Part shown: one piece after another, positions 8,990 through 61,015 of the stretch
How the letters are laid out: every line of letters starts with the position of its first letter
Numbering within the stretch: position 1 is the first letter of the stretch
Assembly: GCF_002101375.1 (NCBI RefSeq)
Contig: NZ_CP015207.1
Coordinates: 920,001-984,000 of the forward strand
Source: Sporosarcina ureae
GTDB lineage: Bacteria; Bacillota; Bacilli; Bacillales_A; Planococcaceae
Length of the DNA stretch: 64,000 nucleotides
Direction of reading: 5' to 3'
Notes under the pieces: model-generated
Database searches by the model: none
What the model was told of the DNA's origin: nothing
Seen by the model: the letters and a program-made list of their open reading frames with translations, nothing else
Position numbers and translations under genes: made by a program

Positions 8990-9580
8990 TTACTTTTGGA
9001 TAATTTCGATTGATTCAATTTTAATTTCTTCTTTTGGCTTATTATCGCGGTTAGCTTTAGCATTGGCAATTTTGTCGACAACGTCCATTCCTTCTAACAC
9101 TTGACCAAATACAGTGTGCTTTTGATCTAAGTGTGGCGTTCCACCGTTTTCTTCATATGCATCTGCAATTTCTTCAGGCCATCCGCCCTTTTTCAATTGT
9201 GAAGCTGAAGCGCCTGCTAGTGATGATGCTTGTACGATGAAGAACTGGCTACCGTTAGTGTTTGGTCCAGCATTCGCCATAGATAGTGCGCCACGCAAGT
9301 TGAATAGATCCATCGTAAACTCATCTTGGAATGTGTTGCCGTAGATACTCTCTCCGCCCATTCCTGTTCCAGTTGGATCCCCACCTTGGATCATGAACTC
9401 AGGAATAACGCGGTGGAAAATAATACCGTCATAGTAACCATTTTCTGCGTGCGTCAAGAAGTTTTCAACTGTCTTTGGAACTTGCTCTTTAAAAAGCTTT
9501 ATTTTGATTGGCCCCATTGTGGTGTTCATCGTTACTAGTGCTTCGTTTTCTGCTACTTCAGTCGATAATTGTGGATACAT
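8990..9580 (-). CDS. ppiB: Cyclophilin-type peptidyl-prolyl isomerase PpiB
   Basis: 196 aa from the ATG at 9580, which has GAGGAGG seven bases upstream; the longer frame to 9613 lacks one. It shows the core cyclophilin motifs [19 protein letters not shown] and GSQFFIV. A Bacillales-type insertion ([19 protein letters not shown]) lies between the active-site block and [15 protein letters not shown]. No signal peptide, so cytosolic; it catalyses cis-trans isomerisation of X-Pro bonds during folding. Confidence 0.93.
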
Positions 9581-9770
9581 GATATTCCTCCTCAAATTTG
9601 CGTGCTCGTTCATTTTGATGCGTATTTTCTACATGAAATCAGTCTATCATATATGGTGGGAAAATTCGATAATTGTAACTGTGACAGTTAGTTGACAAAG
9701 TTTATTTTGCTAAGAGAAAGCACAATATTAAAAGTGGACAACCTTGATGACTCCTAAGAAAATGCGAGTT

Positions 9771-9900
9771 CGCTCATTATTTTGTAGAACTGCTCATAGT
9801 TCATGTGTAACCGCTCTATGGCCACCTCCAACCGCTCTATACCGGTCCGTTACCGCTCATACTTTACATCACATCGCTCTATGACAAGCTATAACCGCTC
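9771..9900 (-). repeat. 21-bp-period GAGCG array no. 1 in the ppiB-yuxJ gap
   Basis: On the plus strand CGCTC (minus strand GAGCG) recurs at 9812, 9833, 9854, 9875 and 9896, exactly 21 bases apart. A TGCTC variant at 9791 is in phase, and another core at 9771 is one base out of phase. Minus-strand units begin with TAGAGCG or TGAGCG. The 13 bases between cores are not conserved. The array fills the centre of a ~495-bp gap between divergent ppiB and yuxJ; the rest of the gap is AT-rich with no gene I can support. Confidence 0.85.
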
Positions 9901-10075
9901 ATAGCACTCCGCTTTACTACTTCTCATGAATCCAAACAGCCAATGTACATCCCATAACAAGATCAGTATTCCCCATTCGCTCTCACTTTTGATGTAAGCA
10001 CTATATTTCCTTCGGCTACCGAATTGTTTTATACTTAATATCATTGATGCTTTACAGGAGGAAGGCGGTTCAACG

Positions 10076-34611: not shown

Positions 34612-34659
34612 CAGTCAATTGGTCAAAGCAAAGTATTGAATAAATCGCAGTACAATTGG

Positions 34660-34830
34660 CAACTGTAGCTCTCCATACATTTATCGCTGTATGACAGTGT
34701 CATTCCTCTTCGAAATGACCCCAACTTGAGAAGTTGACTCTTCTCAAACTTCGGCATTGCCTCCTTTCGCTCGCGGTCATAGATGTCACTCTCTCGCCAG
34801 GTACTCATAAACAATGCAGCCTCTACGTAA
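34660..34830 (-). promoter_or_regulatory. Lysine riboswitch (L box)
   Basis: Read on the minus strand the leader has, in order, the conserved pieces of the lysine aptamer: GTAGAGGCTGC, TATGAGTA, GAAAGGAGGCAATGCCGAAG, a hairpin around GTTGGGGTC...ATGACACTG, and CATACAGC...GTATGGAGAGCTAC closing P1 against GTAG at the 5' end. A terminator follows at the expected distance. By analogy, bound lysine favours the terminator and shuts off the downstream transporter. Confidence 0.85.
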
Positions 34831-34888
34831 GTCTCGATATTCTTCTATACTTAGTGTAGCAATAATCGACATTGTTCACAACACCCAT

Positions 34889-47742: not shown

Positions 47743-48924
47743 CTATACTTTTTTAGTGAAACGGTCGACGATCATCGCAAGCGCCCCGTCACCTGTAACG
47801 TTTGTTGCTGTTCCGAAACTATCTTGCGCTAAATACAACGCGATCATCAATGCTACCATGCTCTCATTGAAGCCGAGCATGCTCGTAAGGAGCCCGGTTG
47901 CCGCAACGACTGCGCCACCCGGTACACCAGGAGCGGCAATCATCGTAACACCTAGCATAAAGATGAATTGTAAATACGAACCAAAACTTACATCAAACCC
48001 GTTCATCAGCATAACCCCGATAGAACAGGAAACAATCGTAATCGTACTACCCGATAAATGGATCGTCGCGAACAACGGCACCGCGAAATCCGTTACACGT
48101 TCTGAAGCACCCGTCTTTTTCGCTTGACGCAACGTAACCGGAATCGTTGCAGCAGAAGATTGTGTTCCGATAGCCGTCAAATACGCAGGTAGCATCGTTT
48201 TCATTAACACGAACGGATTCCGTTTGTTCAATGCACCCGCCACTGTGTACTGGAATGTTAGCATGGTTAAATGAAGAATGATGATCATGATGAAAACAAA
48301 TACAAAGACTGAAAGCACATTCGCTACTTCACCTGTATATGTCATATTCAGGAAAATCCCAAAAATATGGAAAGGTAGTAATGGAATAATGACGACAGAA
48401 ATGACTTTGTTGATAATTAAATTAAATTCATCGAAGAACGACATCATCGTCTTCCCTTTAATCGCTGCCATTCCAATGCCAAGCACAAATGCCAATAGCA
48501 AAGCGGTCATGATCCCCATCATTGGGTCCATTTCCATTTCGAAGAACGCTACTCCAGCTTCACGCGCGCCTTCTGCAATGTCCGTCTTCGTCGTGGGTTG
48601 AATGAAGTTCGGCAAAATATTCGTTGCTGCGAAATACGCAAGCAATCCCGCGATCACCGTAGATCCATACGCAAATGCAGCAGACATTCCTAGCAATTTC
48701 CCGGAACCTGCTCCAAGCTTTGCAATACTTGGTGCGATAAACGCAATGATAATCAGTGGAACGATAAAGTTCAAGAATCCACCGAATAACATATTAAATG
48801 TAGCTGCTAAGCGAACGAACCAATGCGCAAATCCTTCATGGATCATCGGCAATACTAAACCAAGTCCGATCGCCAGCCCAATGGCGATTAGAATTCGCCA
48901 AATGAGCCCTAATTTAAACTTCAC
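47743..48924 (-). CDS. Dicarboxylate/amino-acid:cation symporter (DAACS)
   Basis: 393 aa from a GTG start (GAGGAGGAC upstream). Eight-helix glutamate-transporter-like fold: serine-rich re-entrant loop GTQSSAATIPVTLRQAKK, HLSGSTITIVSCSIGVML, second loop APGVPGGAVVAATGLL, and GTATNVTGDGALAMIVDR. Na+- or H+-coupled uptake of dicarboxylates or amino acids; the substrate cannot be read from sequence. Confidence 0.88.
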   Translation of the reverse strand: MKFKLGLIWRILIAIGLAIGLGLVLPMIHEGFAHWFVRLAATFNMLFGGFLNFIVPLIIIAFIAPSIAKLGAGSGKLLGMSAAFAYGSTVIAGLLAYFAATNILPNFIQPTTKTDIAEGAREAGVAFFEMEMDPMMGIMTALLLAFVLGIGMAAIKGKTMMSFFDEFNLIINKVISVVIIPLLPFHIFGIFLNMTYTGEVANVLSVFVFVFIMIIILHLTMLTFQYTVAGALNKRNPFVLMKTMLPAYLTAIGTQSSAATIPVTLRQAKKTGASERVTDFAVPLFATIHLSGSTITIVSCSIGVMLMNGFDVSFGSYLQFIFMLGVTMIAAPGVPGGAVVAATGLLTSMLGFNESMVALMIALYLAQDSFGTATNVTGDGALAMIVDRFTKKV

Positions 48925-49109
48925 AATACGTCCTCCTCAAATACACATATGTATTACTCAAACAAAATCAACTTTATCACAAGTCGATAGAATAAAGAAG
49001 ATTTTGTTTGAATTTATTTGATGTTTTTCTAGTCAGTTGTGAGGAAGTGGATCTAGTGGAGTTGTTTGGAAGTTGGATGGTCTGCGGTAGTGGGGAATGT
49101 TACTACTTG

Positions 49110-49340
49110 TTGAGCGGGGATTGTGTGGGATTGAACGGATAACTCTACACATTGAGCGGGAAACGCGCTGGATAGAGCGGATAACTCTACACATTGAGCG
49201 GGGCACGCGCGGGATTGAGCGGATCACGCCACTCATTGAGCGAGTCACACGCGGGATTGAGCGGATAGCCGCACTCATTGAGCGGGTCACACGCAGGATT
49301 GAGCGGATACACCCCCCCATAGAGCAAATCTCCCATCATA
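49110..49340 (+). repeat. 21-bp-period GAGCG array no. 2, eleven units
   Basis: GAGCG-type cores fall at 49112, 49133, 49154, 49175, 49196, 49217, 49238, 49259, 49280, 49301 and 49322: every step is exactly 21 bases (the unit at 49133 reads GAACG, the last GAGCA). Most units begin TTGAGCGG. Alternating units are more alike, with tails ending in GGGA or TGGA versus tails ending in CACA or CTCA, giving a 42-base dimeric order. It fills a 465-bp gap upstream of the symporter and downstream of the metQ terminator. Open frames through it are artefacts of a period divisible by three. Confidence 0.92.
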
Positions 49341-49350
49341 TATACAAATA

Positions 49351-49378
49351 AAAAACCGGTAGCTGCGATAGCTACCGG
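49351..49378 (-). terminator. Terminator after metQ
   Basis: CCGGTAGCT, 5-base loop, AGCTACCGG; on the minus strand followed by TTTTTTATTT. Confidence 0.9.
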
Positions 49379-49389
49379 CATTCATGGTT

Positions 49390-50241
49390 TTATTTCACGG
49401 GAACAACGGATCCAGACCATTCTTTCAAAATGAAATCTTGAATTTGCTCTGAAGTCAATACTTCTACTAATGCTTTGATTGCATCGCTGTCTTCATTACC
49501 GCTCTTTACAGCAATTACGTTAACATATGGAGACTCTTTATCTTCCAATGCGATCGAGTCTTCCATTGGATTCAAACCTGCATCGATTGCGAAGTTGGAG
49601 TTGATTAATAATGCGTCGCCTTCATCGTTATTATACAACTGAGGCATTAGCGCTGCTTCGTAATTCGCATCAAACTCCAAGTTCTTTGGATTTTCTACGA
49701 TATCGCCTACTTCAGCTTTCACTTTTTCCACGTCATCCGCTAGCTTGATCAATCCTTTTTCTTCAAGCATAGCAAGTACTCGACCGTGATCTGCAACAGA
49801 GTTACTGATTAAGATCGTCGCTCCGTCTGGAAGTTCTTCCAATGAGTCATATTTCTTAGAATACACACCGATTGGCTCGATGTGGATCGCGCCTGCATTG
49901 ACGAAATCATAACCGAAATCGGCAATTTGGCTCTCTAGATAAGGAATGTGTTGGAAATAGTTCGCATCCAGTGTGCCTTCGTCCAAATCTTTGTTTGGCA
50001 GTACATAATCTGTGTAACTTTCAATTGTTAAATCATAGCCTTTTTCAGCTAATAATGGCTTAGCTTCTTCCAAAATTACAGCGTGTGGTGTGTTAGATGC
50101 GCCGACTACCAATGACGTTTTCTCGCCTTTTTCTGCTCCATCTGATGCTGCATTATCTTTACTACCTTCGTCTTTCGTTCCGCAAGCTGCCAATGCAAGC
50201 ACTAGTACGGCTGCGAATAGACCGAATAAAAACTTCTTCAT
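49390..50241 (-). CDS. metQ: Methionine-binding lipoprotein MetQ
   Basis: 283 aa from the ATG at 50241; an in-frame GTG two codons upstream lies too close to GGGAG. Lipoprotein signal peptide with lipobox LAAC (~residue 20) and a NlpA/MetQ domain (VVGASNTPHAVILEEAKPLL, DANYFQHIPYL). Delivers methionine outside the membrane to MetI/MetN. Last gene of the metN-metI-metQ operon. Confidence 0.93.
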   Translation of the reverse strand: MKKFLFGLFAAVLVLALAACGTKDEGSKDNAASDGAEKGEKTSLVVGASNTPHAVILEEAKPLLAEKGYDLTIESYTDYVLPNKDLDEGTLDANYFQHIPYLESQIADFGYDFVNAGAIHIEPIGVYSKKYDSLEELPDGATILISNSVADHGRVLAMLEEKGLIKLADDVEKVKAEVGDIVENPKNLEFDANYEAALMPQLYNNDEGDALLINSNFAIDAGLNPMEDSIALEDKESPYVNVIAVKSGNEDSDAIKALVEVLTSEQIQDFILKEWSGSVVPVK

Positions 50242-50306
50242 ATCCACATTTCTCCCTCTCCATTATGGAATATTTCTATGGTTAACAGGTCTCCCTGAAA
50301 ATCCTA

Positions 50307-52265: not shown

Positions 52266-52376
52266 TTTCTCTCATCTATCAAAGCATTACGCTTTGAGTG
52301 ATTTGGCACCATTTCACATATGTGACGGTTGCCGGGCTTCATAGGGCACTTCCCTCCGCCGCTCTTTATAAGAGTT
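52266..52376 (-). promoter_or_regulatory. SAM riboswitch (S box)
   Basis: The minus strand shows the S-box landmarks in order: CTCTTATAAAGAGCGGCGGA, GGGAAGTGCCCTATGAAGCC, CGGCAACC, then variable stems and GATGAGAG pairing back to CTCTTAT. A terminator follows about 30 bases downstream. Controls metN-metI-metQ: SAM binding favours termination. Confidence 0.95.
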
Positions 52377-60846: not shown

Positions 60847-60847
60847 A

Positions 60848-61015
60848 TAGAGCGGTTGTGTAACTTGTATGAGCGGTTGCCACGCGTGATAGAGCGCATA
60901 ACTGGATGGATAGAGCGAATATGCTACAACTATGAGCGCTCGGCCCGCTACATAGAGCGCATTACCAACGGGATTGAGCGGGTACACAGCAATTATGAGC
61001 GCCACACATTGCCCC
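60848..61015 (+). repeat. 21-bp-period GAGCG array no. 3, eight units
   Basis: GAGCG occurs at 60850, 60871, 60892, 60913, 60934, 60955, 60976 and 60997, every step exactly 21 bases. Units start TAGAGCG, TATGAGCG or TTGAGCG; the remaining bases vary. The array begins within a few bases of the thioredoxin terminator and ends about 40 bases before the C39 peptidase start. A frame reading ...IERITGWIER... is open through it into the peptidase gene, but only because 21 is divisible by three. Confidence 0.92.

Follow-up and report, generated by a model that had tools for sequence, protein, structure and literature searches.

The window studied here, the whole 64,000-nucleotide stretch between positions 920001 and 984000 of a single contig of 3,353,765 bp, carries an array of eleven 21-bp units on its plus strand (49109..49339) that lies between two genes transcribed from the minus strand. 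In terms of transcription, the array is preceded by a gene for a presumed MetQ-like lipoprotein (49390..50247, minus strand; nearest named locus in Sporosarcina sp. P34, 97% identical in MetQ), whose relatives assign the genome to Sporosarcina, and is followed by a gene that presumably encodes a GltP-like dicarboxylate/cation symporter (47743..48924, minus strand). The array is adjoined by a putative terminator-like hairpin of metQ (49350..49380, minus strand) that was recognized by eye and appears on the plus strand as CCGGTAGCTGCGATAGCTACCGG together with a run of A. Two further GAGCG arrays are found in the window, one on the minus strand with six exact cores and one degenerate core (9758..9903) and one on the plus strand with eight exact cores (60847..61014). 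Rfam matches in the window are limited to a lysine riboswitch (34658-34833) and a SAM riboswitch (52269-52374), both on the minus strand and away from the array; the latter precedes a metNIQ-like operon.

The cores of the metQ-side array start at 49112, 49133, 49154, 49175, 49196, 49217, 49238, 49259, 49280, 49301, and 49322, and the next position at a 21-bp distance reads TACAA. Of the eleven GAGCG-type cores at 21-base steps described in an earlier note on this DNA, the phase thus holds at 11/11 positions but the exact word at only nine, with GAACG as the second core and GAGCA as the eleventh. The 42-bp dimer that had been proposed as the true unit is real at this locus, where Tandem Repeats Finder reports a period of 42 (4.4 copies, 85% matches, score 233) versus 62% matches at a period of 21, and it recurs at some other loci (e.g., L027, L039, and L040). 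It was not seen in simple seven-unit arrays, however, and therefore looks like a state of local amplification and not like the basic unit.

The array beside metQ is one of a large family on the same chromosome. In the 3.35-Mb genome, the pattern TTGAGCGG-N13-TTGAGCGG with up to two mismatches has 138 matches on the plus and 213 on the minus strand (351), and four exact cores at 21-bp steps are matched 159 and 188 times (347), while the same two patterns read backwards each gave 0 and 0 matches, so that chance is excluded genome-wide. All array counts are lower bounds because they come from 39 stretches fetched around places among the matches listed; the complete listing of array ends comprises 50. 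Within these 39 stretches, pairs of GAGCG are spaced by 21 bp 521 times, by 20 bp 24 times, and by 22 bp five times, while no other step between 5 and 28 bp occurs more than twice. They contain at least 78 chains with a minimum of three cores and, after two short chains that are mere reverse readings of other arrays had been left out, at least 76 arrays with 741 units (577 of them distinct), which merge by distance into at least 50 clusters. Simple arrays have around seven units, their spacers are position-specifically alike from locus to locus, and a 20-bp step recurs close to the end, whereas expanded loci reach up to 56 units per cluster, often as multi-unit blocks. The suggestion of a replicating repeat family is therefore borne out in part, by a dispersed form of around seven units with related spacers and by local amplification at several loci. 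As a side observation, the 20-bp step precedes the last unit and is common to dispersed copies such as L011, L015, and L016, where it perhaps indicates that the element ends there. The strongly expanded loci of this genome (G000) in which multi-unit blocks are repeated lie near 1098-1099, 1189-1190, 2152, and 2276 kb as well as near 2423-2424, 2441-2444, and 2754 kb.

Across the 577 distinct units, the strand that carries GAGCG has the consensus S-AWW-GAGCG-SWTR, with A or T in 97 to 100% at the three bases 5′ of the core and near-random letters at positions +13 to +17; only 5 bp and, more softly, 12 bp recur in each 21-bp unit. Degenerate cores that are in phase mostly carry a single mismatch (51/55), most commonly an A in place of the last G (24) or a T at the third base (14), though the figures for units and degenerate cores take in copies made by amplification.

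The arrays are not placed evenly among the gaps between genes. Based on simple ORF-based gene calls, by which small spurious ORFs may misplace some gaps, 22 of 49 array gaps are convergent, 19 tandem, and eight divergent, compared to 12, 51, and 35 among the 98 remaining gaps of 100 bp or more in these stretches (22/49 versus 12/98 convergent; Fisher p = 2e-5). Gene ends adjoining arrays are 3′ ends in 64 cases, at a median distance of 79.5 bp, and 5′ ends in 35 cases, at a median of 172 bp; a terminator-like hairpin within 170 bp was found on 22/64 sides facing 3′ ends versus 5/35 facing 5′ ends.

The arrays are also oriented with respect to replication. With the origin taken at dnaA (1,886,786) and the terminus at the opposite point, an assumption made without a skew test, GAGCG and leading-strand genes are on opposite strands in 37/50 clusters (p = 0.0009), and the same polarity is seen for 31/40 clusters away from the terminus and for 17/22 in convergent gaps (p = 0.017). 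That arrays of the favored orientation are larger (p = 0.018) could also be a product of replication slippage. Outside the arrays (372 kb), GAGCG is close to its expected frequency on either strand (235 versus 243.6 and 217 versus 221.5) and leans the other way (263 versus 189), so the polarity belongs to the arrays and not to the word as such. In the related genome G229, 26/35 loci follow the same orientation rule (p = 0.006) when loci are grouped by hand and the origin is inferred from synteny, though this result is not independent of the first genome because the loci are partly orthologous.

The metQ gene is present in 68/68 genomes of the genus, and we read 30 of these loci. Where metQ identity reaches 81% or more (11 genomes, the source genome among them), an array lies beside the gene in every case (11/11) and is adjoined by a terminator-like hairpin of metQ (judged by eye), while no GAGCG chain was found beside metQ in the 19 other loci read, where only this core was sought. 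The 11 arrays range from 3 to 29 exact cores and all keep both core and 21-bp step, yet their spacers are not recognizably related except for the pair G230/G231 and a partial likeness among the nearest genomes. For a direct comparison of G000 with G229, 20 stretches of the latter were fetched, nearly all of them picked for listed array ends, so that the presence of arrays in them is not independent evidence; one locus picked by synteny alone (L322) also carries an array. The 24 orthologous pairs have the same orientation throughout (24/24) but differ in the number of exact cores in 22/24 cases.

In ten aligned orthologous arrays of these two genomes, the core differs at 6/370 bases (GAGC at 0/296, the last G at 6/74), compared to 189/565 (33%) for spacer positions +10 to +17 and 512/2598 (20%) for the flanking 150 bp. 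Because only cores that read exactly GAGCG in G000 were compared, those that G000 has lost are missed, but this choice cannot yield a twelve-fold difference. Our central result is thus that the core is held at the DNA level and the remainder of the unit is not, in agreement with the earlier view of selection on core and spacing with little constraint in between. The 21-base phase, whose loss from related genomes would have spoken against that view, is kept at the close metQ loci, and four exact cores at 21-bp steps occur in 85/261 genomes of the family and in 11/19 of its genera. The reversed control is non-zero in 27/261 of these genomes (counted by hand), and single matches elsewhere may therefore be coding or other repeats.

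From genus to genus within the family, the bases that surround GAGCG vary. A search at the level of the order repeats the family search since the order holds only this family in our genome set. At class level, five exact cores were matched in 18/398 genomes, ten of them within the family and eight outside, and the outside matches listed look by eye like coding repeats or near-exact short tandems (a 7-bp repeat in G473; G459 is the least clear case). Viral contigs contain 52 stretches that match five cores, which is a raw count without reversed control, while all matches in plasmids (6 records) and phages (10 records) are partial and cover at most 34% of the query.

The 21-bp step extends further than the word GAGCG. 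An unbiased period score over six units and seven columns was applied to 391 intergenic regions from 80 named metQ neighborhoods, where 14 regions exceed a score of 45 at period 21, compared to between 0 and 5 for every other period in the range of 15 to 30 and to 0 in five Markov controls; the count for period 21 is a lower bound because arrays that are open as ORFs are masked. This score-based scan replaced an exact 5-mer scan at any period and a stricter 6-of-6 version, both of which miss most arrays with other cores (the latter found one region in the 80 loci). Ten loci with scores above 54 carry different words, namely ATAGCCCATAA (L062), GCCCGAG (L069), CTCCTAA (L074), and CGCTCCTAA (L077) in Psychrobacillus; CCGAGCATAA (L071, sp. 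FJAT-22090) and TGTCYTG (L100, sp. EB01) in Bacillus; CCCGGTY (L054, S. luteola), ATGTCCGC (L087, uncultured), and CGCTC (L052, S. ureae) in Sporosarcina; and TTTTATC (L080) in Lysinibacillus. At L062, L069, L074, L077, and L100, the array starts 58 to 125 bp past the end of the metQ match and lies beyond a terminator-like hairpin with a run of T. The array of Bacillus sp. EB01, for example, has six 21-bp units with its word directly past the metQ terminator (L100:6912-7038).

At the two loci with two arrays each (L062 and L071), both arrays share their word, but a rule of one core per genome is not proven by these loci and G000, on which it rests. Samples from other genomes varied: 400 kb of G184 contain no period-21 region above a score of 42 with any core, 400 kb of G220 contain two (62.4 and 48.3), and around 470 kb of G033 contain a single clear one (59.6, with the word CTATCCGTC) besides weak ones, so that 21-bp arrays are far from universal. 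We further note that the reversed pattern GCGAG is frequent at 21-bp steps in G033 (42/32), G034 (15/46), and G057 (33/40), where the matches are perhaps arrays with yet another word. Separately, intergenic arrays of 26/52 bp with conserved words (e.g., GTGCCCGTGACA in L120) were seen at loci named Neobacillus, Peribacillus, and Paenibacillus (L095 at ca. 475-790, L097 at ca. 632-890, L118 at ca. 9445-9650, and L120 at ca. 416-800) and are perhaps a parallel system with another step.

The main rival to a binding array is a self-propagating or neutral minisatellite that spreads by slippage or recombination and whose core would be needed by the copying step itself, as a word for breakage, nicking, or priming, and not by the host. 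This explanation, which we consider possible though rather unlikely, accounts for dispersal, expansion, and size bias better than a binding array would: copies with related spacers are dispersed over the chromosome, whole blocks have been amplified, unit numbers vary widely between strains (3 to 29 cores among the 11 genomes and differences in 22/24 pairs), array size is biased with replication orientation, and the arrays sit in 3′ gaps that should tolerate them. Whole-unit copying alone, however, does not explain why so few core bases have changed while spacers outrun their flanks, an unevenness along the unit that differs from the even divergence of a minisatellite, and it leaves unexplained, too, that other lineages have unrelated words at an identical 21-bp step.

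Much less probable is a transcribed RNA element or rut-like aid to termination with CGCTC on the sense strand. The location of many arrays near gene 3′ ends would suit such a role, as would CGCTC being the sense strand in 15/19 tandem gaps. On the other side, RNA folding of ten arrays on both strands gave z-scores scattered around 0 (lowest -2.01 and -1.77, highest 1.48), 22 arrays lie between convergent genes, and an exact step of two helix turns has no obvious meaning for an RNA. With ordinary folding on both strands, the ten arrays also do not look like REP/BIME elements or other structured RNAs.

The Chi sequence of Bacillus subtilis is AGCGG, which is contained in GAGCGG, and the arrays are polar in 37/50 clusters, so that one may think of clustered Chi-like or KOPS-like words for recombination or chromosome segregation, an idea to which we attach very little weight. 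G follows GAGCG in only 54% of distinct units, and the orientation in 37/50 clusters, with the origin assumed at dnaA, is opposite to what the rule for fork repair would predict; we have thus rejected a Chi cluster. A KOPS/SRS-type guide was likewise rejected since the word, besides being unenriched outside the arrays, leans the other way there.

Least credible of all is a translated heptad repeat protein in the IER frame, which is open in the window and in the most arrays of all six frames (29/76) with fewer spacer stops than the position-specific expectation (52 versus 76.9), because stops interrupt it in 47/76 arrays, another frame has a similar deficit (42 versus 58.6), the 20-bp steps shift the frame, and the comparison of G000 with G229 revealed neither a period of three among spacer substitutions nor any synonymous excess, with GAG changed to GAA in 0/74 cases. 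The array had been described as unrelated to this frame, and that independence is upheld, including with respect to codon-level conservation, of which the third base of GAG bears no trace. A CRISPR array would require long near-identical repeats with unique spacers and does not match units in which 5 bp, or softly 12, recur.

We are evenly divided on whether the arrays are helix-phased sites for a putative sequence-specific DNA-binding protein with a target that drifts from one lineage to another. The phased binding site proposed in the earlier note nevertheless remains the best reading of the constraint on core and phase; the partner protein, its filament, and its role are what we infer from it. 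The putative protein would read the core of ca. 5 bp (GAGCG in this genome) with a softer surround of 12 bp, and its copies would align on one face of the DNA, because a 21-bp step is two helix turns, and would probably touch one another. There are at least 50 strips of this kind, most of them close to gene 3′ ends and many past an intrinsic terminator or between convergent genes, and they might then be covered by a protein filament that most likely separates transcription units, acting as an insulator or roadblock, or that marks a site of chromosome organization. Spacers would be free to change, units could be gained and lost, and the target word would drift between lineages. Against this binding strip stand the 20-bp steps, which occur recurrently close to the end of arrays, and core numbers that differ in 22/24 orthologous pairs are odd for a finely tuned regulator. 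The presence of the GAGCG form in only 85/261 genomes and the lack of any 21-bp array in the 400 kb sampled of G184 indicate that the system is dispensable.

More speculatively, the arrays of the different lineages could together represent an unrecognized system of the Bacillales in which words particular to each lineage recur every two helix turns, often after terminators, and may be read by a fast-evolving partner (a protein or a guide) to form a phased filament that insulates or organizes transcription units. Each genome would then have its own word with the phase shared by all, and the locus past metQ would be kept while the word is replaced. A literature search over titles and the beginnings of abstracts, with most subscription papers outside its reach, found no paper that describes these arrays, and the portion of PMC5930826 available to the search has "repeat" once (for a repeated analysis) and neither "intergenic" nor "tandem".

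If core and phase are indeed kept for a binding protein, hundreds of sites in these genomes would belong to a new chromosomal DNA-binding system, and each genome would display the exact bait for catching the partner. Together, the constant phase, drifting word, and fast spacers would directly document how a protein and its target have co-evolved, and dedicated insulators between convergent operons would become testable in bacteria. If the arrays are instead selfish, a minisatellite that preserves its core through its own copying would also be unusual.

Among known systems, REP/BIME elements are extragenic and dispersed near gene 3′ ends like the arrays described here, but REPs are palindromic hairpins while the arrays are direct repeats without unusual folding. 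DNA uptake sequences, Chi, and KOPS/SRS are short, asymmetric, strand-polar words that differ between lineages, and in all of this they resemble the array word; they are scattered singly, however, whereas the array word has a fixed 21-bp step and is not enriched outside the arrays. Bacterial minisatellites of the VNTR/MIRU type share with our arrays the dispersed intergenic location, the tandem arrangement, and the variable number of units, though here core and step are kept while the spacers outrun the flanks in divergence. There is also a likeness in geometry to the iterons of plasmid origins and to direct-repeat centromere sites, repeats of ca. 20 to 22 bp in one orientation that are bound by oligomerizing Rep or ParR-type proteins, since the arrays are likewise direct repeats in helical phase with a conserved core, set in one orientation and on one face of the helix. 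Unlike these sites, they form at least 50 arrays dispersed over one chromosome, mostly near gene 3′ ends, and only ca. 5 bp of each unit are strongly constrained.
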